Source: a bacterium (Candidatus Blackallbacteria) CG13_big_fil_rev_8_21_14_2_50_49_14 | GTDB taxonomy: Bacteria > Cyanobacteriota > Sericytochromatia > UBA7694 | DNA length: 58,783 nucleotides | Direction: 5' to 3' | NCBI GenBank assembly: GCA_002783405.1 | Contig: PFGG01000061.1 | Span: forward strand, 1 to 58,783 | Part shown: positions 13,306 through 47,001 of the stretch, one piece after another | Layout of the letters: each line of letters begins with the position of its first letter | Numbering within the stretch: the first letter of the stretch is position 1 | The notes under the pieces: generated by a model | Told to the model about the DNA's origin: nothing | Databases searched by the model: none | What the model saw: the letters and a program-made list of their open reading frames with translations, nothing else | Position numbers and translations under genes: made by a program

Positions 13306-14709
13306 ATGTTCATTGATATTCAGGCTTTTTTTGAGACCACCCCCGTGTCAGCGACCTTCGCTGTGGAGACAATTAAAATCCGTCCTGAGCAAATCAGTAC
13401 CGATTCAAGAGCGATTCCCGAAGGCGGTTTGTTTATCCCCTTAAGAGGGGAATTTCATGATGGCCATGCCTATCTCTTAAAAAGTTTTGAGTTGGGGGCC
13501 CAGGCTGCTTTCTGTGAAAAACAGGTCTATGAGGCCAACCGCAACACTTATGCAGATCTCCCCCTGCTCTTGGTGGAGAACTGTTTAAGCGCCTATCAGG
13601 CACTGGCAAGGCAATGGCGCAGACAGTTAAATATTCCAGTCATTGGGATCACGGGCAGCTCAGGAAAAACATCCACCAAAGAAATCTTGGCAGCAGTGCT
13701 CAGTCCCTTTTTAAAGGTGCATAAAAACAAAGCCAATTTTAACAATGAAATTGGCGTACCCAAAACGCTGCTGGAAATCCCCGTTGATGCCCAAGTGGCG
13801 ATCATTGAAATGGGCATGCGCGGCCAGGGCCAGATTACTGAACTGGCTGAAATTGCAGAACCCAATTTGGGTTTGATTACGCAAATCGGAACCGCCCATT
13901 TAAGCGAACTGGGTTCACAAGCAAATATTGCAGACGCAAAATGGGAATTGGCGAAATTTCTTGAGGCACATCAGGGAAAACTTTTTGCGCAAGCTGAAGA
14001 CCCCTTGCAAAGACTCGCTGCGCAGCAAACCCCACAGCTGGCTATTTCTTGGTGTGGTGAAAGCGAAGACAGTCTGGTCAGGTTACTGTCTGTCACTGAA
14101 TATGATACTTTTCAAGAAATTGAATACCAGGTTCAAGCGGGCAAGGTCCACACACTTCAATTGATGATGCCAGGCCGTCACCAGGTCAGAAATCTGTTGC
14201 TTTGTCTGGGTGTTTTATCAGCATTGGGTTATGTCTTGCCTGAGCATACGCAGATTGAGCCAGAACAATTGTTTGGCAGAAATCAAATCATTGAACTCCC
14301 GAATTCCGCCACACTCATAAACGATGCCTACAACGCCAACCCCGAATCCATGCGGGCCACGCTTGAAGTTTTTGGTCGCCGCAAAGCAAAACGAAAAATT
14401 GCAGTCTTGGGTAAAATGGGAGAACTGGGCCCCCAGAGCCCCCAACTCCATGCTGAATTGGGAAAATTTTGTAGCCAACTCGAGCTCGATTACTTAATCG
14501 GTTTGGGTGATGAAACCCAAATTCTGATTGAGAATGCTGAAAGGGGAGCCTTTCAACGCCTCTGGTTTCAAGAGCATGCTGAATGTATTCAAGCCCTGAC
14601 TCAATTACTTGCCCCCGGTGATCTGCTCCTTTTAAAGGCCTCCCGTTCGGCTCAACTTGAAAAACTCATTGAAGGTTTGACCTTTGTTCCAGAATCTGAG
14701 GGCGCGTGA
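13306..14709 (+). CDS. murF: UDP-N-acetylmuramoyl-tripeptide--D-alanyl-D-alanine ligase
   Basis: 467 aa from ATG 13306, with AGGAG seven bases upstream; a GTG 24 bases earlier is less likely. It adds D-Ala-D-Ala to UDP-MurNAc-tripeptide, the last cytoplasmic step of the peptidoglycan precursor. N-terminal domain (about 15-90) with STDSRAIPEGGLFIPL, the ATPase P-loop GITGSSGKTSTKE (about 115), NFNNEIGVP and EMGMRG central-domain motifs, and the C-terminal DAYNANP segment (about 347) define the Mur ligase family and MurF in particular. First gene of an operon in which the next start overlaps its stop by four bases. Confidence 0.95.
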   Translation: MFIDIQAFFETTPVSATFAVETIKIRPEQISTDSRAIPEGGLFIPLRGEFHDGHAYLLKSFELGAQAAFCEKQVYEANRNTYADLPLLLVENCLSAYQALARQWRRQLNIPVIGITGSSGKTSTKEILAAVLSPFLKVHKNKANFNNEIGVPKTLLEIPVDAQVAIIEMGMRGQGQITELAEIAEPNLGLITQIGTAHLSELGSQANIADAKWELAKFLEAHQGKLFAQAEDPLQRLAAQQTPQLAISWCGESEDSLVRLLSVTEYDTFQEIEYQVQAGKVHTLQLMMPGRHQVRNLLLCLGVLSALGYVLPEHTQIEPEQLFGRNQIIELPNSATLINDAYNANPESMRATLEVFGRRKAKRKIAVLGKMGELGPQSPQLHAELGKFCSQLELDYLIGLGDETQILIENAERGAFQRLWFQEHAECIQALTQLLAPGDLLLLKASRSAQLEKLIEGLTFVPESEGA

Positions 14710-16433
14710 ACCGAGCGCTTTGGATACAAATCGTGATGAGTTTGCTGATGGGGGCCCTCTGTCAATTGGCGGTTCTCACCCTGCCCCCCTTAGAATGGCT
14801 TGAATCCCGCTTTTATGATTTGAGAATCTATTTTCAAACCCCTTCAAGCCCCAACCCTGAAATTCTTTTGGTGGATCTTCTGCCCTCAGAAATACCAGAA
14901 TTGATTGATTGGATTCAAAAAAAGCATTTGACTGGTCTCAAAGCCTTGGGGATGGATTTTCAGGCCAAAGATTTTTATGAACATGAATTGGCTCTTGATA
15001 CCCTGCGTTCGGCCCCTTTTCCCGTGGTTCTTTCCTCAAGACTCAAGTTTAAAGGGCAGGCACCGGTTTCAATCTACAACCCCCAGCGAATCAGCGGAAA
15101 AAACTTCAGCATTGGCATTTCAGATTATTTGCCGGATCCAGACGGGGTTCTGCGTAAACAAGCTGGCGTTTTTTATTATCAATCAGCCAAAGAAAAAAAA
15201 ATCAAAGCCATCGAGGCCTTTACCTGGGCGTTGTTTAAACAAACTCAAAATAAGCGGGTCAGGCCCCCGGCCTCCAGTCTGATTCACTTCTCAGGGCCCA
15301 ACCAGCTTTATCCCACACTTGAATTTTCTGAATTGAAAAAAATGTCTGCGCATGCACTCAATAATAAATATGTTCTGGTAGGAGACAGCCAGGAAATCTT
15401 ACCCTTCGATACCCCAACCCATGCCCGCATCCCGATTTTAAGTCTCCATGCCCAAACGCTTTCAGGTTGGCTCAATCAAACCTATTTTCGAATCCCTGCC
15501 CTCTTCAATCTTTTACTGCCTTTGCTGCTGGCTTTGCTGACCCTTGGCGTTTTGAGTTTTACCCTCCGCTGGGGCATGTTGGTTTCTGCGCTTTCGACGC
15601 TTACCTTATTTTTTTCTTATGCCACACTCAATATTCTGTTTTTTCAATATTTTAATACCGTTTTCGCAATGAGTTCCCCCTTATTCGCCATCTTGATGAC
15701 CGCAGGCGCTGTGACCGTCTTTTTTAATCGAACAGAGGGTCAGCGCAGAGCTGCCATTTTAAGTACTTTCAGACGCCACCTGCCAGACAATATGGTAAGA
15801 GAACTGCTTGAAAACAGCGAACCCGATCGTTTGACTTTGCATGAGCGAAGGGTGGTCACTGTGATGTTTACAGATATTAAGGGCTTTTCAAGAATGGGCG
15901 AAAAATTGCCCCCCGACCAGATTATTCACATCCTCAATGAATACCTGACTGCCATGACAGATATTGTGTTTAACAATCAAGGAACCCTCGATAAGTATAT
16001 CGGGGATGGTATCATGGCTGTTTATGGAAATATTGGTGAGAATAATCCACGGCAAAATGCCTACTATGCAGTAAAAACAGCTTTAGAAATGCGAATTGAA
16101 ATGGAAAGACTTCAGAAGAAATGGATGCACGAAGGATTGCGACCGATTCAAATCCGAATTGGGATCAATACCGGTGAAGCGCTGGTCGGCTACGTAGGCC
16201 ACCCCAAACGCAAAGAGGTGACGGTTATTGGCGATACGGTCAATACAGCGGCCCGAATTGAAAAGCTGAATAAAAAATACCACACCCATATTTTAATCAG
16301 CCACAGCACCTATGAATATGTAAAAGATTGGATGGATTCGGTGGCACTGGGTGAAGAAAAACTAATGGGGAAAACAAGCAGTGTCAAAATCTATGAAATA
16401 CGCGGCTGGAAAGACGAAAAAATCCCCTCATGA
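14706..16433 (+). CDS. CHASE2-domain class III adenylate cyclase
   Basis: 575 aa, GTG start overlapping the murF stop. A first membrane helix (about 8-26) is followed by an extracytoplasmic CHASE2 sensor (about 35-260), three membrane helices (about 264-340) and a class III cyclase domain (about 380-540). Metal-binding Asp390 (FTDIKGFS) and Asp434 (YIGDGIMAVYG), Lys430 and Asp510 as adenine-selecting residues, and Asn513/Arg517 (VNTAAR) for transition-state binding are all present, so it should make cAMP from ATP. Its position between murF and csaB suggests that an envelope signal controls cAMP. Confidence 0.93.
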   Translation: MNRALWIQIVMSLLMGALCQLAVLTLPPLEWLESRFYDLRIYFQTPSSPNPEILLVDLLPSEIPELIDWIQKKHLTGLKALGMDFQAKDFYEHELALDTLRSAPFPVVLSSRLKFKGQAPVSIYNPQRISGKNFSIGISDYLPDPDGVLRKQAGVFYYQSAKEKKIKAIEAFTWALFKQTQNKRVRPPASSLIHFSGPNQLYPTLEFSELKKMSAHALNNKYVLVGDSQEILPFDTPTHARIPILSLHAQTLSGWLNQTYFRIPALFNLLLPLLLALLTLGVLSFTLRWGMLVSALSTLTLFFSYATLNILFFQYFNTVFAMSSPLFAILMTAGAVTVFFNRTEGQRRAAILSTFRRHLPDNMVRELLENSEPDRLTLHERRVVTVMFTDIKGFSRMGEKLPPDQIIHILNEYLTAMTDIVFNNQGTLDKYIGDGIMAVYGNIGENNPRQNAYYAVKTALEMRIEMERLQKKWMHEGLRPIQIRIGINTGEALVGYVGHPKRKEVTVIGDTVNTAARIEKLNKKYHTHILISHSTYEYVKDWMDSVALGEEKLMGKTSSVKIYEIRGWKDEKIPS

Positions 16434-20289: not shown

Positions 20290-21147
20290 ATGCATTTTTT
20301 ACTGGCTGGGGCCTTTATCATAAGTTTTGCGCCTGTTTTGGTGCGTCTTGTCGATCTTCCCTCCGCTGTGATCGGCTTCTATCGCATGTTGTTTGGACTC
20401 TTCGTGCTGATATTGATTGGATTTTTTCGGCGCCAAAACTGCAAAGTTGACTCAAAAACCTTTAAACTCGCGCTGGGAGCAGGCCTCTTTTTCGCTTTGG
20501 ATATTCTCTTCTGGCAGCGTTCAATTCATTTAATTGGACCGGGTTTGGCTACTCTTTTAGCCAATTGCCAAATATTTTTTGTTACCCTGATCGGTTGGGC
20601 GGTGCTCAAAGAAAAACCCCATCCCCGTCTCTGGATAGCAATTCCTACTGCAATTTTAGGTCTCTGGCTGGTGGTGGGGCCTTCCTGGAACTCGCTCAGC
20701 GATGGCCCAGCCGGAATCTTACTGGGGGGGCTCGCCGCGATCAGTTACTCCCTCTATCTCTTGGTTTTAAGAGCGGCAGAAAAAAACCATCGCAAAACAA
20801 ATCCCGAAGGCCCTTCCCCGGTTATGCTCTGGAATACCTTCAGCTCTTTGCTGATCCTTTTCATGACCGTGCAAATGGAAAAGAGCTCCATTGCTTTGGC
20901 ATCAGGAAATCTTTGGCTGATCTTGATAGCCTATGGTATTTTTATTCAAGGTTTGGCTTGGCTCTTCATCAGCAAGGGCTTGGCGCAGGTTCCTGCTTCT
21001 CGGGGAAGTTTAATTCTTTTACTGCAACCTGCATTGGCTCTGGTTTGGGATGTACTCTTCTTCCACCACCCCTTGAGTGCCCGCGAAGCGAGTGGTGCCT
21101 TGCTGACCTTGATCGCAATTTATTATGGTGCAAGCCTCAAGACCTGA
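20290..21147 (+). CDS. EamA-family (DMT) transporter
   Basis: 285 aa with about ten hydrophobic helices in two EamA repeats (about 1-135 and 150-285). It begins FIISFAPVLVRL...GFYRMLFGL, with FWQRSIHLIGPGLATLL in repeat one and GLAWLFISKGLAQVPASRGSL in repeat two, both typical. It likely exports a small metabolite across the inner membrane. It follows comFB by 15 bases and closes the operon; its stop is one base from the stop of the converging fusion gene, with no hairpin between. Confidence 0.85.
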   Translation: MHFLLAGAFIISFAPVLVRLVDLPSAVIGFYRMLFGLFVLILIGFFRRQNCKVDSKTFKLALGAGLFFALDILFWQRSIHLIGPGLATLLANCQIFFVTLIGWAVLKEKPHPRLWIAIPTAILGLWLVVGPSWNSLSDGPAGILLGGLAAISYSLYLLVLRAAEKNHRKTNPEGPSPVMLWNTFSSLLILFMTVQMEKSSIALASGNLWLILIAYGIFIQGLAWLFISKGLAQVPASRGSLILLLQPALALVWDVLFFHHPLSAREASGALLTLIAIYYGASLKT

Positions 21148-21148
21148 G

Positions 21149-23959
21149 CTAAAAACTGGCTTCAAGTCGGGGACGCCCCAATTTGAAACCATGCTTATCC
21201 GCTATTTTTTTGATCTGTTCAACCTGCTGTTTATGCAATCGTCCATGGCTATAGTTTTGCTGGATGCCTTCCAAACCCATTAGGAGAGTTTCAGCCATAC
21301 AGGCAAAGGAATAGCCAGGTTCAAGGGGAATGCCAGGCACATAAAAATCTGGATTCAAGGGCAATTGCACCAAGCCCCCCAAGATCACATCTACATTCGG
21401 ACATTGAAGTTTGACCTCTGCAGACGTATCCATCGGAACAGAGATATCGCAAATGATATGGGCACCTTTCCCCAAAACTTGGGGAAAAATAACGGGCTCG
21501 GGTGAATTACTTGCCCCCAGAATCAATTCTGAACTCGCCAAAGCGGAGAAGTCTGTACAAATTTGAATCGGGGCAAGCTTACCCAGCAATTCAGTGAATT
21601 TTCTCCAAAGTCCCCGTTCTTCGACAGGAGCCAGAAACTCTGCAAAATCAACACCCAGCGAACTTAAGCTGGCAGCGATTCCTTTCAGGGGAAGTGGGGA
21701 AGCAAAAGATCTTAAAACCTCAGCATAGATTCTATCGGCTGTCTTCTCCAATCTGCTTTCACTGCCCGGCCTGCCAATTAAAGCAATCTGAGCAATCTCC
21801 CCGGCCATGCATTCAGCATAAATACTTGCGATATTTCCAGCCGCACCAATCACAGCAAGCCGCGCTGTATTCAGTTCAATCTCTTTGTTTCGGGCAGCAG
21901 TGAGCATGGCTTCAATGCCCATTGCGACAGTCAGCGCATTACCCGTCGTTAATGCCAGTTCCTGGCTCAGAAGCGTGGTTGCATTGAAGGTTACGATTGA
22001 ATTATAGCCCCCCAGCCCCAAAACCTGATGGTGTTTTGAACGGGCAATGTCCACAGCTTCTTGGACCAAATTCTGAACGGGTGCCAGCTTTCTGCTTTCC
22101 AAATGACGGTGCATAATCTCAGAATCGAGACATAGGCCCATAAAATTTAAAATGACAGAAGTCCCCAACTCGGAAGTAACTTTGAGGCGGGTATAGATTT
22201 GAGGGCCCACCCAAGGCCACAACTGATCTAAAAATAGTTTCAATTCTTGCGCAGAAAACACAGCCAATCCGGGATCCCAGAGGGGAACATGTTCTGGTTT
22301 AATAAAATGCCCCAGAAAGGTCACCTGGGGAAGTTTTTCATCCTCTGCCGCGATCGAAACGCCTGAATACAGCTTCTCAGGTAAAGGTTGAAAATCTAAA
22401 TCTGCGCCCACCAAATAGCCAGTGAGGGCAGCAATCTGGGCTTCAGCCAAAATTTGAAAAAGGCGTTCAAAGGCCTTGAAGATCTTTTCAAGCGCTTCCT
22501 GGGTCAGTAAATAACAGGGTTCCAAACGCAAGGTTTGCGGATTACTCAGGGTGGGAGCAACCCGAATCTGGGCATGATGAAGCAACCACCCAGCCAAAAC
22601 ATAGCCCAAAAGTCCTTGTTCAGCCAGCATATTTAGAGCAGGAGAAGAACTCTCTGTAATAAGATGGAATTCAATCCCCAACATGAGGCCACTGCCTCTT
22701 ACTTGCTTTACAACGGTGGGGAACCTTTCTTTCAAAGCCAAAAATCCCTGTTTGAGCTGCTCACCCATTTCTGCACAGCGTCTGGGAATTTCTTCGCGAT
22801 CCAATAAAGACAGGCTCTCCAGGGCGACTTTGGAACTCAGCGGGTCTTCAGCGAAAGTAGAGCTGTGAATCAGACTGAATTCAGGTTGATAGACCTCTTT
22901 CGCAATCAAAGCAACCCCCATTTTGGTCAGCCCCCCACCCAGACTTTTCGAAAGCAGATAGGTATCGGCCACAATAGCTTGGGTCTGAGAGTATAAAAAT
23001 TGACCGGTTCTGCCCATACCTGACTGAATTTCATCGAGGATCAAAGGGAATTTAAATTCAGAAGCCAAGCTGCGACAACTCTGCATAAACTCAGGTGAAA
23101 TGCTTAAAATCCCGCCCTCACCTTGCAAGGGTTCAGCAAAGAGCGCAAGCACCCGGCTGGCTTGTTTGGCTTGAAGACTCAAACCAGATTTGCCAAGTAT
23201 CGGGAGATACCATTCAGATTGCCAATTTAAAATCGTTTCACGCAATCCTTGGCTCTGACCGGGTTCCAAGAAAAAAGCAGGCACCCCCAAACGCGAAAAA
23301 GGTTCACGGTACTCTTTGCCATGGGTCAACTGAAGGGCTGCTGTTGTTTTGCCATGAAAACCATGCTCCAAAGCAAGTAAAATCGGCTCGGTCTCAAAAT
23401 AGGCTTTAAATTTTTGATTTAAGAACGCGCTCAAGGCTGCTTGAGTCGTTGCAAGGCCTAATCCACTTAAGCAGGCCTCTGTCTCAGGAGTCAGTTTCAC
23501 AGGGTATTGGTCTAGAAGCTGAAGGGCCTGTTCAAATTCAAATTGAAAAGCTTTGAGACGCTTCTGATACACCAATTCAGCATGTTTCAAAGCAGCTTCA
23601 ACGGCTTCAGCCCCTGAATTTACAAAGACACTGATATAGTGTTTTCCCGTAATCTCGGCCAAGCGTTTATCCAGCTCTTCGGCAAGCAGCCCAGCTTCAC
23701 GCCGTTCGCTCCCTTGGGCCAGAAAAGGCCGTTGAGCTGTCAATTCTGCTTGCAAAACCGAAACCAAATCCGGATGATTGTGTCCAAAGAGGGTAGCGCC
23801 ATAGCCCCCAATCAAATCCAATACGGGGATTTCTTGACCGTCTTTTTGATAGAAAAGATAGGCTCCTTCACCCCGATGGTAATATTTATCGAGCTGGAGA
23901 GCCTTTAACAATTGCCCCAGTTCGGGTCTGACATAGGTTTGATAGGCGGAATCAATCAT
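21149..23959 (-). CDS. Class III aminotransferase fused to acyl-ACP reductase-like domain
   Basis: 936 aa. Residues 1-500 are a class III (ornithine/GABA type) PLP aminotransferase: FVNSGAEAVEAAL (112-124), LILDEIQSG (Asp309) and the PLP lysine Lys338 in LLSKSLGGG. Residues about 546-936 match cyanobacterial long-chain acyl-ACP reductase: FLGHFI start, LGGYNSIVTF, TTGNALTVA, the NADPH loop VIGAAGNIAS (703-712), and FACMAE with Cys887 at the position of the catalytic acyl-thioester cysteine, then GRLHKQ and ADKHGFKLG. Inferred reaction: acyl-ACP to fatty aldehyde to primary fatty amine. It is read from an ATG overlapping the stop of the NHL lipoprotein gene. Confidence 0.85.
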   Translation of the reverse strand: MIDSAYQTYVRPELGQLLKALQLDKYYHRGEGAYLFYQKDGQEIPVLDLIGGYGATLFGHNHPDLVSVLQAELTAQRPFLAQGSERREAGLLAEELDKRLAEITGKHYISVFVNSGAEAVEAALKHAELVYQKRLKAFQFEFEQALQLLDQYPVKLTPETEACLSGLGLATTQAALSAFLNQKFKAYFETEPILLALEHGFHGKTTAALQLTHGKEYREPFSRLGVPAFFLEPGQSQGLRETILNWQSEWYLPILGKSGLSLQAKQASRVLALFAEPLQGEGGILSISPEFMQSCRSLASEFKFPLILDEIQSGMGRTGQFLYSQTQAIVADTYLLSKSLGGGLTKMGVALIAKEVYQPEFSLIHSSTFAEDPLSSKVALESLSLLDREEIPRRCAEMGEQLKQGFLALKERFPTVVKQVRGSGLMLGIEFHLITESSSPALNMLAEQGLLGYVLAGWLLHHAQIRVAPTLSNPQTLRLEPCYLLTQEALEKIFKAFERLFQILAEAQIAALTGYLVGADLDFQPLPEKLYSGVSIAAEDEKLPQVTFLGHFIKPEHVPLWDPGLAVFSAQELKLFLDQLWPWVGPQIYTRLKVTSELGTSVILNFMGLCLDSEIMHRHLESRKLAPVQNLVQEAVDIARSKHHQVLGLGGYNSIVTFNATTLLSQELALTTGNALTVAMGIEAMLTAARNKEIELNTARLAVIGAAGNIASIYAECMAGEIAQIALIGRPGSESRLEKTADRIYAEVLRSFASPLPLKGIAASLSSLGVDFAEFLAPVEERGLWRKFTELLGKLAPIQICTDFSALASSELILGASNSPEPVIFPQVLGKGAHIICDISVPMDTSAEVKLQCPNVDVILGGLVQLPLNPDFYVPGIPLEPGYSFACMAETLLMGLEGIQQNYSHGRLHKQQVEQIKKIADKHGFKLGRPRLEASF

Positions 23960-25101
23960 TTTTGAGCCCTACGAATCATGCGAATTCTGTGATTTTGGGT
24001 ATCGGCAATCGCCAGCCCCGTAGGAGTCAGAACCAAACCAGAAGGCATTGCAAAACTTCCTTCTTTAAGAGACCCATTCTGAAAACGGCCTTGCCCATTG
24101 CCCGCAAAATTTGAAAGACTCCGATCAGGTGAAACCAAACGAATGCGATGATTTCCAGAATCTGCAATATACAGGTTTCCTGCCTGATCAAGATCCAGCC
24201 CTCGGGGTTCATTCAAACGGGCCTGTTCACCCACCCCCTCTTGATCTCCGGGGGAGCCATTTCCAACCCAGGTTTCAAGCATTCCTGTCTTGCCCAAGCG
24301 ACGAATCGCATGGTTAAATCCGTCAGAAATATACAGGTTTCCCTGCGAATCAGCGACCAAATCACGCGGGGAATTGAGTCGGGCTTCTAGCGCAGGCCCA
24401 TTTAAGAAACCCTTTTCAGCGCTGCCTACCAGTGTAGAAACGGTTTTGCCATCAGCACTTAATTTTCGAATTCTGTGGTTGTTGCTGTCGGCGATCAAAA
24501 GATTACCTTGCGCATCCAGACAGAGTCCACTGGGGCTTGAAAACAAGGCGGTCTGTGCCTCTCCATCCTGAAATCCAGATTTTTTGGGCACACCTGCCAA
24601 GGTACTGACATTTCCTTTGACATCAATTTTGCGAATCAAATGGTTGCCTGAATCAGCAATATACAGATTTCCAGCCTGATCCACGGTCAAGCCCACAGGA
24701 TTGTCAAACTGGGCTTGGGCAGCTTGCCCATCTTGATATCCTGGCGCACGCTGCCCCGCAAAGGTAGTTGTCTGGCCTTGCTGGCTTATTTTGCGAATTC
24801 TGTGGTTAAAGCGATCGACCCCATAAAAAAAAAGATCTGGCCCCTGCACAATATCCCAAGGATAGCTGAACTGCGCTTCTTGAGGCCCACCCTCTTTAAA
24901 ATCTGAATCGCCCTCTCCAGACAGAAGCTCTATCTTTTCATTGCCTGTCCAGTTGAAGGCTGCTTGTTTCGAAAGCGCAGCCCCCAAAACCCTCGGGCTT
25001 TGGGGGCCGCCAGACTGTGAAGGCGATGCACAGGCGTTTAAGACGCCAGGGAGAAGAAAAGAGAGAAGAGCAGGCTTTGTCAGGCTGAATCTTGATGGCA
25101 T
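23956..25101 (-). CDS. NHL-repeat beta-propeller lipoprotein
   Basis: 381 aa. Signal peptide with lipobox LNAC (Cys23), then six NHL repeats (about 75-380) each of the form P-x-G/D-L...G-N-L-Y/L-I-A-D-S-x-N-H-x-I-R-K/L, joined by TxAGxxxxGxxDG turns. Such propellers bind partners or ligands at the cell surface or in the periplasm. The four-base overlap with the downstream fusion enzyme suggests that they are made together, although the fusion itself has no export signal. Confidence 0.9.
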   Translation of the reverse strand: MPSRFSLTKPALLSFLLPGVLNACASPSQSGGPQSPRVLGAALSKQAAFNWTGNEKIELLSGEGDSDFKEGGPQEAQFSYPWDIVQGPDLFFYGVDRFNHRIRKISQQGQTTTFAGQRAPGYQDGQAAQAQFDNPVGLTVDQAGNLYIADSGNHLIRKIDVKGNVSTLAGVPKKSGFQDGEAQTALFSSPSGLCLDAQGNLLIADSNNHRIRKLSADGKTVSTLVGSAEKGFLNGPALEARLNSPRDLVADSQGNLYISDGFNHAIRRLGKTGMLETWVGNGSPGDQEGVGEQARLNEPRGLDLDQAGNLYIADSGNHRIRLVSPDRSLSNFAGNGQGRFQNGSLKEGSFAMPSGLVLTPTGLAIADTQNHRIRMIRRAQK

Positions 25102-25697: not shown

Positions 25698-28508
25698 TCA
25701 GGCCTCGCTGACCCTGTCCAAAAGATAGAGATAAGAATGCCAGGCTTTTTGAGTGGCGCGTTCCAGGCCCAATTCACAGGTACGGCTGCTGGAACAATAG
25801 AAGTCAGCTGAAGATTGAAGCTCAAGGGCTGAAGCCTCGTCTTTCAAGGCCGATTGCGTTAATTCAGGAACCCAATACCCCCGATCCCCGGCAAAACCAC
25901 AGCAACCAGCAGCTTGCGGAATTTCAGCCTGGGTCACACATGCTGAAACCAAACTGAGCAGTTGGTCTTCAATTCCCATTTTCTGAACTGAACAAACCGG
26001 ATGCACCCAAGCTTTTGCATGGATGGGTTGCAATTTCAGGTTGGGGAGTAGAAACTCAAGGGCAAACACAATGCTGTCGATAATGCGCAGCTTTTGGATT
26101 CTAGATTGATTTTCAGGATTCAGCCCCTCGGGTTGACTGAGCAACTGCCAGGTACAGGGGCTATTGTCCACCAAGACAGGCAGTCGCCCAAAATCAGAAT
26201 GCTGCCAGAGCATGTCGATGCTTTGATTGCGCAGGTAATTGCCCGCTTCATGCAGTCCCTTTGAGCCAAAGGGCAGACCACAACAGTGTCCCATGGGAAT
26301 ATCAGCGAGTTTAATCCCCGCCTTTTTGCAAAGCCGATGCAGCACTTCAGGCAAAGGATTTTCAGCTTCGTAACCCAAATTTCGGGTAATACATGAACTG
26401 AAGTAGACAGCATCTGCTGAAAGATTTGAGACAGCAAGGGGTTGCCAGGGTTTCGGCTCAGGCCATTCAGGGGGCCAATCGGGCAAATCAAAGAGAGCAT
26501 CTAAAAACAGCTTTTTCAGCTGATTTATCCTGTGAGTCCCCAGCGTGTGGTGCCCCCACTTTCCCCATTGAAGCCCCAAACGCAGAGATTTTTCAAGCAG
26601 CGGAAATTGTTTTGCCATGCGAAGGGCCATTGCCTGTTTAAAATCTGAACAGGATTCAGAACGCAATTGTTTGACCAAAAGACCCGTGTCAATTTTAACA
26701 GGGCAGGCCAAGGCACAAAGTCCATCGGTTGCACAGGTATCCAGAGCATAGTACGGGTAATCCTCTTGTAAAACTTTTAAAAGCCCAGCCTGGGCTGGAT
26801 CGTGTTTCAAACGCTGCATTTCCCTTCTCAGCACAATCCGTTGACGGGGAGTCAGACTGAGGTTTCGGCTGGGGCATTGTTTTTCGCAAAATCCGCATTC
26901 AATACATTGATCCACCACAGCTTCAATCACAGGTAAGGTTTTCAAATTTTGAACATGGGCCTGGGAATCATCATTCAAAATCACGCCAGGGTTTAAAAAC
27001 CCCATCGGGTCGATAAGCTTTTTCAAGCGTTTAAACAGGGCATAGGCCTCAGGCCCCCATTCTGTTTCAACAAAGGGGGCCATATTCCGACCTGTCCCAT
27101 GTTCTGCTTTCAAAGCCCCCTGAAATTTGGAGACGATCATGGCGACAAGATCGGCCATAAAATCATGGTAGCGTTGAATCTGATCGGGCTGATTAAACGA
27201 TTGGGTGATGACAAAATGCAGATTTCCATCTTTGGCATGTCCAAAGATAATCGCTTCCTGATAGGCATAGCGTTGAAATAATTCCTGTAACTCAGTAACC
27301 GCTTCCGCCAGCACCTCCAGGGAAACGGCAAAGTCCTCGATAATCACGGTGGTCCCCTGCGCCCTGACGGCCCCCACAGAGGGAAAAAGCCCTTTGCGAA
27401 TCTTCCAAAGCTCCGCTTGTTTTTTCTGATCCCGTGTAAACTCAGTTGCGGCCAGCAAGGGCCAGGATTTCAGCAAGTCTTCAAGTTGAGCTTGCAGGGA
27501 GTGAAGGCTCGTTTCTTCATGGGCCTGAAATTCCACCAGCAAAGCGGCTGCCGCTTCAGGTAAAGCCTGGATCCACTCCAATTCGGTTTGTAATTCTATC
27601 GCCCGCAGCGAAGCCCTGTCCATCAATTCGATGGCCTGGGCCCCCAAAGTTGAAAGTGAAGGAATTGCATAACAGGCAGACTGTATATCTTGAAAGACAA
27701 GCAATCCTGTCATTTTTAAGCGCGCGTCAGCGACAGTATTCAGAACCGCTTTTGAGATAAAGGCCAAGGTTCCCTCTGAGCCAATCAGAAGATGGCTGAG
27801 GATCTCCAAGGGCGTTTCAAAATCCACAAAGGCATTCAGACTGTAACCCATTGTGTTTTTTTGCCGATACTTTTGACGAATCAGCTGCAACAAAGCGGGA
27901 TGCTCATGAATTTCCTGACGCATCAGGCGCAATTCTTTTGCAAGTTCGGGCAATTCAGCTTCAAATAATTGCTCGGCATCGGGGTCTGAGGTATCAAGGA
28001 GATGACCAGAAGGTAAAATAAATCGGAGCGAAGCCAAGGTGTGGTAGGCATTTTGAGCAACCCCACAACACATGCCACTGGCATTATTGGCAAGCACCCC
28101 CCCCATCATACAGGCATTGATGGAAGCCGGATCTGGGCCAATTTTTCTTCCGCAGGGCTTCAACGCGGCATTTAAATGCCCAGCCACCACGCCGGGTTGA
28201 AAACTTACCTGTTCACCTGCATTTAAAACTTCAAAACTTCGCCAATCACGGGCCAAACCCACCAAAATCCCCTCACTGATGGCTTGACCAGAGAGACTGG
28301 TGCCTGCCGCACGAAAGGTCAGCGGAATCTGCTCAGTTTGACTGAATTGAAACAGTGCCTGAATATCGGATTCAGAACGAGGATAGACCACAGCTTGGGG
28401 AATAAGGTGATAAAAACTGGCGTCTGAGGCCATTGCCCGGCAAAGCGTAGGATTGGTAATCACACGCTCCTCGCCCAATTGGGAGCGTAAAATCTCCCAG
28501 GGAATCAT
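25698..28508 (-). CDS. FAD-linked oxidase with ferredoxin and cysteine-rich (CCG) domains, D-lactate / 2-hydroxyacid dehydrogenase-like
   Basis: 936 aa. FAD-binding 4 domain (about 30-240, with the GTSLSGQAISEGILV and GPDPASINACMMGG loops) and FAD-oxidase C-domain (about 260-510, RKGLFPSVGA, GHAKDGNLH) are followed by two 4Fe-4S motifs (CIECGFCEKQCP at about 540 and CATDGLCALACP at about 600) and a CCG domain with GHCCGLP and AGCCG. This architecture is that of respiratory D-lactate, glycolate or 2-hydroxyglutarate dehydrogenases that pass electrons to a quinone. The substrate is unassigned. Start overlaps the stop of the outer-membrane-like gene by four bases. Confidence 0.9.
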   Translation of the reverse strand: MIPWEILRSQLGEERVITNPTLCRAMASDASFYHLIPQAVVYPRSESDIQALFQFSQTEQIPLTFRAAGTSLSGQAISEGILVGLARDWRSFEVLNAGEQVSFQPGVVAGHLNAALKPCGRKIGPDPASINACMMGGVLANNASGMCCGVAQNAYHTLASLRFILPSGHLLDTSDPDAEQLFEAELPELAKELRLMRQEIHEHPALLQLIRQKYRQKNTMGYSLNAFVDFETPLEILSHLLIGSEGTLAFISKAVLNTVADARLKMTGLLVFQDIQSACYAIPSLSTLGAQAIELMDRASLRAIELQTELEWIQALPEAAAALLVEFQAHEETSLHSLQAQLEDLLKSWPLLAATEFTRDQKKQAELWKIRKGLFPSVGAVRAQGTTVIIEDFAVSLEVLAEAVTELQELFQRYAYQEAIIFGHAKDGNLHFVITQSFNQPDQIQRYHDFMADLVAMIVSKFQGALKAEHGTGRNMAPFVETEWGPEAYALFKRLKKLIDPMGFLNPGVILNDDSQAHVQNLKTLPVIEAVVDQCIECGFCEKQCPSRNLSLTPRQRIVLRREMQRLKHDPAQAGLLKVLQEDYPYYALDTCATDGLCALACPVKIDTGLLVKQLRSESCSDFKQAMALRMAKQFPLLEKSLRLGLQWGKWGHHTLGTHRINQLKKLFLDALFDLPDWPPEWPEPKPWQPLAVSNLSADAVYFSSCITRNLGYEAENPLPEVLHRLCKKAGIKLADIPMGHCCGLPFGSKGLHEAGNYLRNQSIDMLWQHSDFGRLPVLVDNSPCTWQLLSQPEGLNPENQSRIQKLRIIDSIVFALEFLLPNLKLQPIHAKAWVHPVCSVQKMGIEDQLLSLVSACVTQAEIPQAAGCCGFAGDRGYWVPELTQSALKDEASALELQSSADFYCSSSRTCELGLERATQKAWHSYLYLLDRVSEA

Positions 28509-44649: not shown

Positions 44650-45568
44650 AGGGGTCGCCAAAGGCATCCCCAGCCAGATAAAGTGGCAAGGGGTGATTTA
44701 ACTCAAAATAATTTTCCTGCAGCGGGTTTTGAACCTGGGCAAAACGCCACTTGTGCACATCTAAGGCGACATAATTTACAGAATTATATTTCTGGGCAGC
44801 CTCCCAAAGCTTCAAACCCACAGCCTCTTTTTCCTCCTTCCAATGGCTGCGACTGAAGTGAGCTGTGGCTTGAATGGTCAGTGCTGGCACGGGTGAAATG
44901 CCCTTGGCCTGGTTATCTGCAATCCAAGCAATCGGGCTCATTGGATCTTTTTGCGACAGAGCCCCTGGAGAGGGCAAAGTACTGGGTGCTTCTAATTCAG
45001 CCATGACCACAATGCAGGGATCAAACTTGACGGCTTTTAAGCGCTGCAATATTTCTTCTTCTGGTTCAATTCCAGATTTATTTAAAAGTGTCAGAGACTG
45101 CGGCAGCGGGGGCGATAAAATCACAGCATCGGCCTGCCAGCTTCCCCCAGATTCAGATTGAAGTATCCATTCTGAATCCTTTGCTTGCAAAGAGACTATA
45201 TTCTCTTCTAAACAAATCTCAAGCGGTTCGGCTAATTTTTGTGCAATCGAAGCCATGCCCTGGCTGCCAAAAAAACGCAAATAGCCATCCATATTCAAAA
45301 TTTTGTCACCATTTAAAAAGCCGCGCCCCCACTCCTTCACCAAGCCCTGATCCTGCAAATCTTCAATCACGACGCGAAAAAACATTCCATGCACAGTGAG
45401 ATACTGAGCCCCATGATCAAAAACAGCCTCGCCCACTCTGCGCGTGGCCATGCGTCCACCAAAACCTTTCGATTTTTCAATCACTTTGACTGCAACACCC
45501 TTCTTCTGTAAGCGTCGCGCAGCGATAATTCCAGAAATTCCGGCCCCAACAACCACACAGCTCCTCAT
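44579..45568 (-). CDS. Renalase-like FAD-dependent oxidoreductase
   Basis: 329 aa. FAD GxGxxG loop VVGAGISGIIAA (about 6-17), EKSKGFGGRMATRR (about 31-44), the FDHGAQYLTV strand, and LAGDAFGDPFNPVEGAAVSG near the C-terminus are the blocks of the amine-oxidase/renalase family. The substrate is unknown (renalases oxidise isomeric NAD(P)H forms). Its tail overlaps the MOSC gene tail by 71 bases, and its start overlaps the WD40 gene stop by four bases. Confidence 0.85.
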   Translation of the reverse strand: MRSCVVVGAGISGIIAARRLQKKGVAVKVIEKSKGFGGRMATRRVGEAVFDHGAQYLTVHGMFFRVVIEDLQDQGLVKEWGRGFLNGDKILNMDGYLRFFGSQGMASIAQKLAEPLEICLEENIVSLQAKDSEWILQSESGGSWQADAVILSPPLPQSLTLLNKSGIEPEEEILQRLKAVKFDPCIVVMAELEAPSTLPSPGALSQKDPMSPIAWIADNQAKGISPVPALTIQATAHFSRSHWKEEKEAVGLKLWEAAQKYNSVNYVALDVHKWRFAQVQNPLQENYFELNHPLPLYLAGDAFGDPFNPVEGAAVSGLESAKALLKRWA

Positions 45569-47001
45569 GGTTTTTCACCTTTCACTTCGGGCAAAGGATA
45601 AGCAAGTGTCAGATCAATACTCAGGTTTTGAAGTATGGGCTTGGATAAATTGGCTGCCTGCATAGAGACTTGGATATTCAAAACCTTATCAGCAAATTTT
45701 TTCGGAATAAACACGGGTAAAACCAAAGGAACTTGTTCACCCATTGCCAATTCCTCAAGTTGATACGCTGTACTTTCCCCTTGAAAAAGGGCCTGTTCAG
45801 AATTCAGTTTGAGATCAATTTTGAGGTTTTTCAGCGGGGAAGTCCCTTCGTTCTCAAGCGCCAAGACAATTTCTATCAGCTCACCCGGCTCAATGCGATG
45901 ATTGTGATTCCCGTTTGAATTGTCTTTGGCATCATCGTCAATGCCGACTAAACGCAAGGATAAAGCAGGATTGAACCAATTGGCGATGGCCCGAGCAGAA
46001 GCACTTCCCATCGCGGGTGCAGAGCCGGGTTGAATATTTTCCCAAATACGGATGTCTGGGTCATTGTGACCACTTGCCAAGAGCGGTTGAACCGGGTTGA
46101 AACTTAAAGCATAGGTCTTAGCAGGAATTCCATAGAGAGACTGGGTATTGACCCCCTGCGGAACCGTCCAAAAACGTAGGGATTGATCTCCCAAACTGCC
46201 ACTGCTCAGAAAGCGACCATCGGGGCTAAACGCCAAAGTCCAGATAGGTTGAGAATGGCCGGCAAATTTTGAAATCGTTTTTTTTTCGTGCATATCCCAG
46301 AGCCGAATCATTCGATCTTCCCCAGCACTGGCAAGATATTTTCCATCAGGGCTGAAACTTAAGGCGTAAACTTCCTTCAAATGCCCTGGCAAAACAGGCC
46401 CAGCTTCCCCAGAGAGCGCATCCCACATCCGAATCGCAGTATCATCATAGGCACTCGAAACAAGATATTTTCCATCGGGACTATAGGTCAAAGCAGCAAT
46501 GCCACCCGATTGGGGGGCTAAGGTTTTAAGATTTTTCCAATCGGATAATTGATGAATCAGGATACGGCCATCGAGCCCGCCACTGGCCAGTTGTTTGCCA
46601 TCGGGGCTAAAAACCAGACTGAGTACGCCCTTGGTATGCTCCATGGAGGAAAAGAGATTCGCTCCCGTAATCAGATCCCAGATTTGAACGCGACGATCCA
46701 AGCCAGCAGTAGCTAACCATCTTCCATCCGGGCTGAAGGCCACTGCAGAAATCCAATTGGCATGACCTGCCAGCTCATGCAGCAAACTCCAATTTTTGGT
46801 TTCCCAAATCCGAGTCGTGCCATCAAAACTGCCTGAAGCGAGATAATTTCCATCTGGACTAAAGGCGACACTGAAAATTTCGTGCTTATGTCCAGATAAT
46901 TTGCCCTCGCCCGGAACCGACTGTGCGGGCACCCAAAGGGCTTGGGCCGGCCCCGTCCAGAGCAAAAGCCCAACAAGTGCGGCAAGATAGCGCTTCAACA
47001 C
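45565..47001 (-). CDS. Secreted WD40 beta-propeller protein
   Basis: 478 aa. Signal peptide about 1-21 (GLLLWTGPAQA). Seven WD40 repeats (about 35-325), each with a SPDGxxLAS turn and a terminal W-D/E/T, close one seven-bladed propeller; repeat 7 is degenerate (NPVQPLLAS). The C-terminal about 330-478 is a beta-sandwich resembling CARDB/DUF11-type domains (GELIEIVLALENEGTSPL). It likely serves as a periplasmic or surface binding platform. Translated immediately before the renalase-like gene. Confidence 0.9.
   Translation of the reverse strand: MLKRYLAALVGLLLWTGPAQALWVPAQSVPGEGKLSGHKHEIFSVAFSPDGNYLASGSFDGTTRIWETKNWSLLHELAGHANWISAVAFSPDGRWLATAGLDRRVQIWDLITGANLFSSMEHTKGVLSLVFSPDGKQLASGGLDGRILIHQLSDWKNLKTLAPQSGGIAALTYSPDGKYLVSSAYDDTAIRMWDALSGEAGPVLPGHLKEVYALSFSPDGKYLASAGEDRMIRLWDMHEKKTISKFAGHSQPIWTLAFSPDGRFLSSGSLGDQSLRFWTVPQGVNTQSLYGIPAKTYALSFNPVQPLLASGHNDPDIRIWENIQPGSAPAMGSASARAIANWFNPALSLRLVGIDDDAKDNSNGNHNHRIEPGELIEIVLALENEGTSPLKNLKIDLKLNSEQALFQGESTAYQLEELAMGEQVPLVLPVFIPKKFADKVLNIQVSMQAANLSKPILQNLSIDLTLAYPLPEVKGEKP

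Follow-up and report, generated by a model that had tools for sequence, protein, structure and literature searches.

Two pigment pathways are known to contain single proteins that convert an acyl thioester to a fatty amine. In the tambjamine YP1 pathway of Pseudoalteromonas tunicata, the formation of amine from acyl-ACP (ACP, acyl carrier protein) by PtTamH was shown in 2022 (PMC9594044). Purified PtTamH binds pyridoxal phosphate (PLP) and forms C7-C14 amines from aldehydes with L-Glu; together with TamA, it turns C12 acid into C12 amine, via C12-ACP, with L-Glu and with NADH and not NADPH, does not accept C12-CoA, and gives free aldehyde if the amino donor is omitted (PMC9594044). TamA, TamH and TamQ of P. 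tunicata are, respectively, an acyl ligase/ACP, an aminotransferase fused to an acyl-ACP reductase (AAR; we call the fusion TA-AAR), and a ligase of PPDK architecture, and TamQ, a homologue of PigC, consumes the amine made by TamH (PMC6667630). For PigE of the prodigiosin pathway, thioester reduction followed by transamination was shown in cell lysate (PMC8341465). Here, we compare these enzymes with a TA-AAR encoded on the minus strand at 21149..23959 of contig PFGG01000061.1 of Candidatus Blackallbacteria bacterium CG13_big_fil_rev_8_21_14_2_50_49_14 (class Sericytochromatia of the phylum Cyanobacteriota, of which it is probably a basal, non-photosynthetic member; assembly GCA_002783405.1, 5.65 Mb in 84 contigs). 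The stretch of DNA that was analysed, positions 1 to 58,783 of this contig, is referred to as the window.

Compared with PtTamH from its published description, the window protein has the same N-terminal class III aminotransferase and C-terminal AAR-like reductase with a GxxGxx loop, a similar length (936 versus 941 amino acids), the PLP lysine at nearly the same position (Lys338 versus Lys340), and the catalytic cysteine at the identical position, Cys887. The two differ in the third glycine of the loop, which is alanine in the window protein, and in their setting: PtTamH shares a pigment cluster with TamA and TamQ, whereas the window gene lies behind a gene for an NHL protein, and close relatives of the window protein adjoin genes for a PPDK-type protein (PPDK_A), CarS and UbiA. 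PigE (NF053554; PDB 4ppm) has the two domains in reverse order, with the reductase first, and the window protein scores 288.8 bits against the PigE model, whose cut-off is 850. TamH-type chemistry is thus already known for this architecture, and the window enzyme is a further member of the TamH kind. Since reduction and transamination are coupled in PtTamH and likewise in PigE, the name "one-protein fatty amine synthase" that the initial annotation gave to the protein is fair, but the idea is not new (PMC9594044, PMC8341465). The tambjamine tail is an exception to its remark that bacteria are not usually described as having long-chain amines, and NADPH, which it had named as the cofactor, is at odds with the use of NADH by PtTamH (PMC9594044). 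What is new is the breadth of phyla in which the fusion occurs and the setting of the window gene's clade, which appears to be linked to lipids. The best explanation of the data as a whole, to which we assign a probability of roughly 0.7, is that the protein is a TamH-type synthase of fatty amine from acyl-ACP, whose product may be used in a polar lipid. Taken separately, amine formation from an ACP-type thioester is probable by analogy, and the lipid destination, suggested by gene context, is tentative.

The gene is a single reading frame running from 23959 to 21149, and the plus strand across the same interval is riddled with stops; the coordinates had been given correctly in the initial annotation, which was silent on the strand. 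The composition of the gene is typical of the window. Both domains are modelled at high confidence (AlphaFold2; mean pLDDT 90.8, pTM 0.86), and chance could hardly account for a frame of 936 codons whose two domains are kept together in one frame across about 30 distant genomes. The aminotransferase, which acts as a dimer, has its domain at amino acids 26-471 (22547..23884, minus strand; PF00202, Aminotran_3, E 2.9e-60). Lys338 (codon 22946-22948, minus), Asp309 (codon 23033-23035, minus) and many further residues of the PLP site do not vary among 33 aligned fusions, in agreement with the positions first proposed. The closest fold to the N-terminal half is CrmG (PDB 5dds, TMt 0.94), a stand-alone class III aminotransferase that, unlike the fusion, has no reductase domain.

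Assignment of the reductase domain (amino acids 545-936; 21152..22327, minus strand) draws on profile, sequence and fold matches, all of which place it with AAR, as had been proposed. The match to the AAR model TIGR04058 (79.5 bits) is far under the equivalog cut-off of 449.7, and the domain has a sequence match to the AAR structure 6jzq. In a profile-profile comparison (HHalign) with 12 cyanobacterial AARs that other genomes of the phylum encode, the domain aligned over 316 columns (probability 99.9%, E 1.1e-32), with Cys887 (codon 21299-21301, minus) placed onto the catalytic cysteine of AAR. This residue is invariant in the 33 fusions. So are the first two glycines of the Rossmann NAD(P)-binding loop, G705-AA-G708-NI-A711 in the window protein (21827-21847, minus); at the third glycine position of GxxGxxG, 14 of the 33 rows have Gly and 10 have Ala, and Cys also occurs. 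Folded alone, the domain is most similar to cyanobacterial AAR 6jzy (TMt 0.81, E 7e-21). The second-best fold is TAD of the carmabin pathway (PDB 9e4u/9e50, solved with NAD(H); identity 15-16%), and other dehydrogenases match weakly: among the matches listed, none beyond AAR and carmabin TAD exceeds a TM of 0.5. The initial annotation had raised the prospect that the domain might cluster with an unrelated dehydrogenase family. We rejected a HemA/shikimate dehydrogenase identity, as HemA aligns over 116 columns versus 316 for AAR, and conclude that the domain belongs with cyanobacterial AAR and not with another dehydrogenase. While the fold, catalytic cysteine and nucleotide loop are common to both, the window domain is only 23-26% identical to cyanobacterial AAR (TIGR04058; 6jzq/6jzy), is fused to an aminotransferase, and has no partner aldehyde-deformylating oxygenase (ADO). 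The absence of an ADO gene from the window, reported earlier, extends to the whole host assembly, which is 96% complete and gave no match to PF11266; nor does any stand-alone AAR in it score above the cut-off.

By analogy with PtTamH, the AAR domain would take an acyl group from ACP onto Cys887, reduction of the resulting thioester by NAD(P)H would give a fatty aldehyde, and the N-terminal PLP domain would convert the aldehyde to a primary amine with an amino acid as the donor. These steps were shown for PtTamH, and conserved residues, fold and architecture suggest them here; the route that the initial annotation proposed, from acyl-ACP through aldehyde to amine, thus appears well supported, down to the shared Cys887 numbering (PMC9594044). 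Instead of ending in a pigment, this amine or a functionalised derivative may then be handed to PPDK_A and enter a CTP-activated polar-lipid route together with UbiA, PPDK_B and CarS-like enzymes, whose genes lie elsewhere in the genome. Direct hand-over to PPDK_A is supported by the consumption of TamH amine by the PigC homologue TamQ (PMC6667630). Gene context leads us to infer, tentatively, that the window gene belongs to the fatty-amine branch of a polar-lipid pathway not yet described.

A scan with the single fusion protein over contigs gave no match, and a three-row alignment then retrieved the relatives. The initial annotation had called for a count of such architectures: full fusions turned up in many phyla, 33 of them were aligned, and 35 loci were surveyed. 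Within Sericytochromatia, three of the 18 genomes carry the fusion, and a genome of the same genus as the host is without it. Beyond Sericytochromatia, the complete architecture is present in Spirochaetota, Goldiibacteriota, Planctomycetota, Methylomirabilota, Calditrichota, Gemmatimonadota, Rokuibacteriota, Bacteroidota, Acidobacteriota, Thermomicrobiota, Myxococcota, Pseudomonadota and Actinomycetota; since most of these genomes are metagenome-assembled genomes (MAGs), single phylum placements need care. In the TA-AAR tree, the window gene groups with the fusions of loci L015, L018, L014, L040, L016 and L074 (98-99% support), and PPDK_A lies next door in all five assessable members of this clade. 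The other two Sericytochromatia copies sit in a different supported clade, on which ground vertical descent of the window gene from an ancestor of the class was rejected.

To characterize the setting of the fusions, we made profiles of the genes that recur beside them and searched with these all six-frame open reading frames (ORFs) of the 35 fusion loci and of 30 control loci, for the most part actinobacterial loci that have the aminotransferase alone. PPDK_A (>600 bits) was found at 12 fusion loci and no control locus (Fisher P = 2e-4, with kinship ignored), and a CarS-like gene at eight versus none (Fisher P = 0.006, with kinship likewise ignored). UbiA-like and CDP-alcohol phosphatidyltransferase genes each occur at six fusion loci (a seventh UbiA-like match is weak), and fatty-acyl-AMP ligases (>400 bits), which could provide the acyl group, at 15; all three are absent from the 30 controls. 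At six loci PPDK_A begins 3-215 bp downstream of TA-AAR on the same strand, and in one genome (G007) the two are fused in frame into a single frame of 1769 amino acids. TA-AAR, PPDK_A, CarS, UbiA and PPDK_B are mostly clustered at L016, L025 and L038, the first and last of which additionally have a CDP-alcohol transferase and an MMPL exporter; genes for phospholipid methyltransferase and phosphatidylserine decarboxylase also lie near fusions. A family of proteins of about 365 amino acids recurs in loci of this lipid type (L016 19223-20311, L074 19291-20370, L025 5602-6714); the two members that were scanned have no Pfam match.

Two variant architectures point to off-loading of acyl groups from ACP. 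In a Limnobacter MAG (L042, 7850-12701), acyl-AMP ligase, ACP and aminotransferase form one ORF, with AAR in an ORF of its own behind it, an arrangement that looks like a joining of TamA and TamH. In a Maritimibacter MAG (L041, 3653-12571), a polyketide module of 2973 amino acids (KS-AT-DH-ER-KR-ACP) ends in aminotransferase and AAR, a possible reductive-amination release module.

In the host genome, PPDK_A is located on a 260-kb contig (C75), away from the window contig, and a 5.9-kb contig (C23) carries a MenB-like gene, UbiA, PPDK_B and the only CarS-like gene of the genome, so that a CarS-like cytidylyltransferase and a UbiA-family enzyme, two of the enzymes by which an archaeal-type phospholipid pathway might be recognised, are both present. 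The host PPDK_A falls into a clade with 100% support together with the partners of L014, L016, L018, L040, L074, L025 and L038; the host PPDK_B groups with the TA-AAR-linked copies of L038 and L074 (98%) and not with those of eight classmates; and the host CarS is 53% and 51% identical to those of L014 and L016. Acquisition of the pathway as a set, with later dispersal of its genes, would be the simplest reading of these trees. PPDK_A occurs in four of the 18 class genomes, namely the three with TA-AAR and one that is 64% complete (G017). In the latter, the place that TA-AAR takes in others, before PPDK_A and CarS, is held by a 709-amino-acid fusion of an extended short-chain dehydrogenase/reductase (SDR; NAD_binding_4) with a lysylphosphatidylglycerol-synthase C-terminal domain (LPG_synthase_C; L130, contig C285, 704-2830), which fits a lipid role without showing it. 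Many Sericytochromatia without TA-AAR (G008-G015, G017) have a UbiA-like gene adjacent or close to a PPDK-type gene.

Like rifamycin phosphotransferase (RPH) and PigC, PPDK_A has a PPDK_N domain first and a PEP-utilisers mobile domain last, and its architecture suggests an ATP-dependent phosphotransferase or ligase of the RPH/PigC type. It reached no curated NCBIfam cut-off. A PEP synthase proper was rejected, as PPDK_N and PEP-utilisers are the only domains and no C-terminal PEP/pyruvate barrel was found.

Several observations weigh against a lipid destination. The control loci are mostly actinobacterial (Streptomyces) and are not phylogenetically matched to the fusion loci. Classmates that lack TA-AAR have UbiA-like and PPDK_B-like genes as well, and the scan of window genes recognised none of the lipid module. 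Near the other two Sericytochromatia copies of TA-AAR there is an oxoamine synthase resembling serine palmitoyltransferase and no CarS, and products may therefore differ within the class. Finally, contig C23 is possibly a contaminant or mis-binned, since it is short and its tetranucleotide profile, although inside the spread of the genome, is towards the high edge. The presence of TA-AAR and PPDK_A is independent of C23, given that an anchor gene on the window contig is 62% identical in the same-genus genome and that C75 is 260 kb long. The serine-palmitoyltransferase-like genes (alpha-oxoamine synthases) lie beside TA-AAR at L008 5346-6656 and L010 11622-13019, and possibly indicate a sphingoid-type lipid there.

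The alternative that survives best, though we consider it unlikely, retains the chemistry and changes the substrate to a hydroxyacyl or polyketide intermediate, so that PPDK_A would phosphorylate an amino alcohol or another functionalised amine. The fusion of TA-AAR to a polyketide synthase (PKS) in Maritimibacter, the proximity of KAS and SDR genes to TA-AAR in Cellvibrio, Lysobacter and Chitinolyticbacter, and the succession of PPDK_A and CarS, which suits phosphorylation of a hydroxyl followed by CTP activation, all speak for it. However, the readable neighbours of the fusions are mostly fatty-acyl-AMP ligases and ACP, and the surroundings of the window gene showed no recognisable PKS.

Less probable still is that the fusion makes the amine tail of a metabolite resembling tambjamine or prodiginine, with PPDK_A as a condensing enzyme of the TamQ/PigC kind. 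TamA-TamH-TamQ of P. tunicata is the same trio of genes (PMC6667630), and against the profiles of PigC and RedH the PPDK-type partners reach about 300-360 bits. Yet these scores are far under the PigC cut-off of 1300, and those against the rifamycin phosphotransferase and PRK06241 models are similar. Moreover, CarS, UbiA and CDP-alcohol transferase are absent from the tam cluster, no bipyrrole-type genes were recognised among the neighbours of the fusions, and neither acyl ligase-ACP, condensing ligase nor bipyrrole genes among the window genes that were scanned, with no genome-wide search made for the bipyrrole genes. We regard as very improbable that the fusion yields fatty aldehyde or alcohol, with the aminotransferase serving mainly a different or reverse reaction, because, despite the broad substrate range of class III aminotransferases and the aldehyde that PtTamH releases when its donor is omitted (PMC9594044), Lys338, Asp309 and many other residues of the PLP site are invariant in the 33 fusions, the assembly has no ADO, and PtTamH and PigE each couple both reactions.

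At the locus itself, the fusion is preceded by a gene for an NHL beta-propeller protein with a lipoprotein-like N-terminus (23956..25101, minus strand; Pfam NHL and sequence reading), whose stop overlaps the start of the fusion (ATGA), and the two genes are therefore probably on one transcript. An EamA-type transporter gene, convergent with the fusion (20290..21147, plus strand), marks the 3′ end of the unit. Farther upstream, the gene for a FAD/4Fe-4S oxidoreductase of GlcD/GlpC type (25698..28508, minus strand) serves as a syntenic anchor. It is present in all five genomes of the family, and in the three for which the flanking genes were read (G001-G003) it has no NHL gene or TA-AAR beside it. 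An empty site was sought in the same-genus genome (G001); the anchor is there, but no clean insertion can be read because the opposite flank is not syntenic. Elsewhere in the window are genes for a CHASE2-guanylate/adenylate cyclase (14706-16433), upstream of a polysaccharide pyruvyl transferase gene, and a bacterial WD40-repeat protein of 478 amino acids (45565-47001).

Even without the lipid link, the fusions provide some 30 diverse single-chain candidates for the conversion of acyl-ACP to amine, when the literature that we found describes no such enzymes besides PigE and TamH with its close homologue TreaH. A wider proposal, which we hold doubtful, is that a pathway has spread horizontally across phyla, in which TA-AAR would form the amine from acyl-ACP, PPDK_A would couple or phosphorylate it, CarS would activate the product with CTP, and addition of a head group would give a polar lipid with an amine-derived core. 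It might be shared by at least Spirochaetota, Gemmatimonadota, Planctomycetota, Methylomirabilota, Pseudomonadota and basal Cyanobacteriota. If the lipid link is true, TA-AAR, PPDK_A, CarS, UbiA and PPDK_B would be a marker gene set, and an unknown lipid of the membrane or envelope in many uncultured lineages would be built with a reaction so far known from pigment biosynthesis alone.
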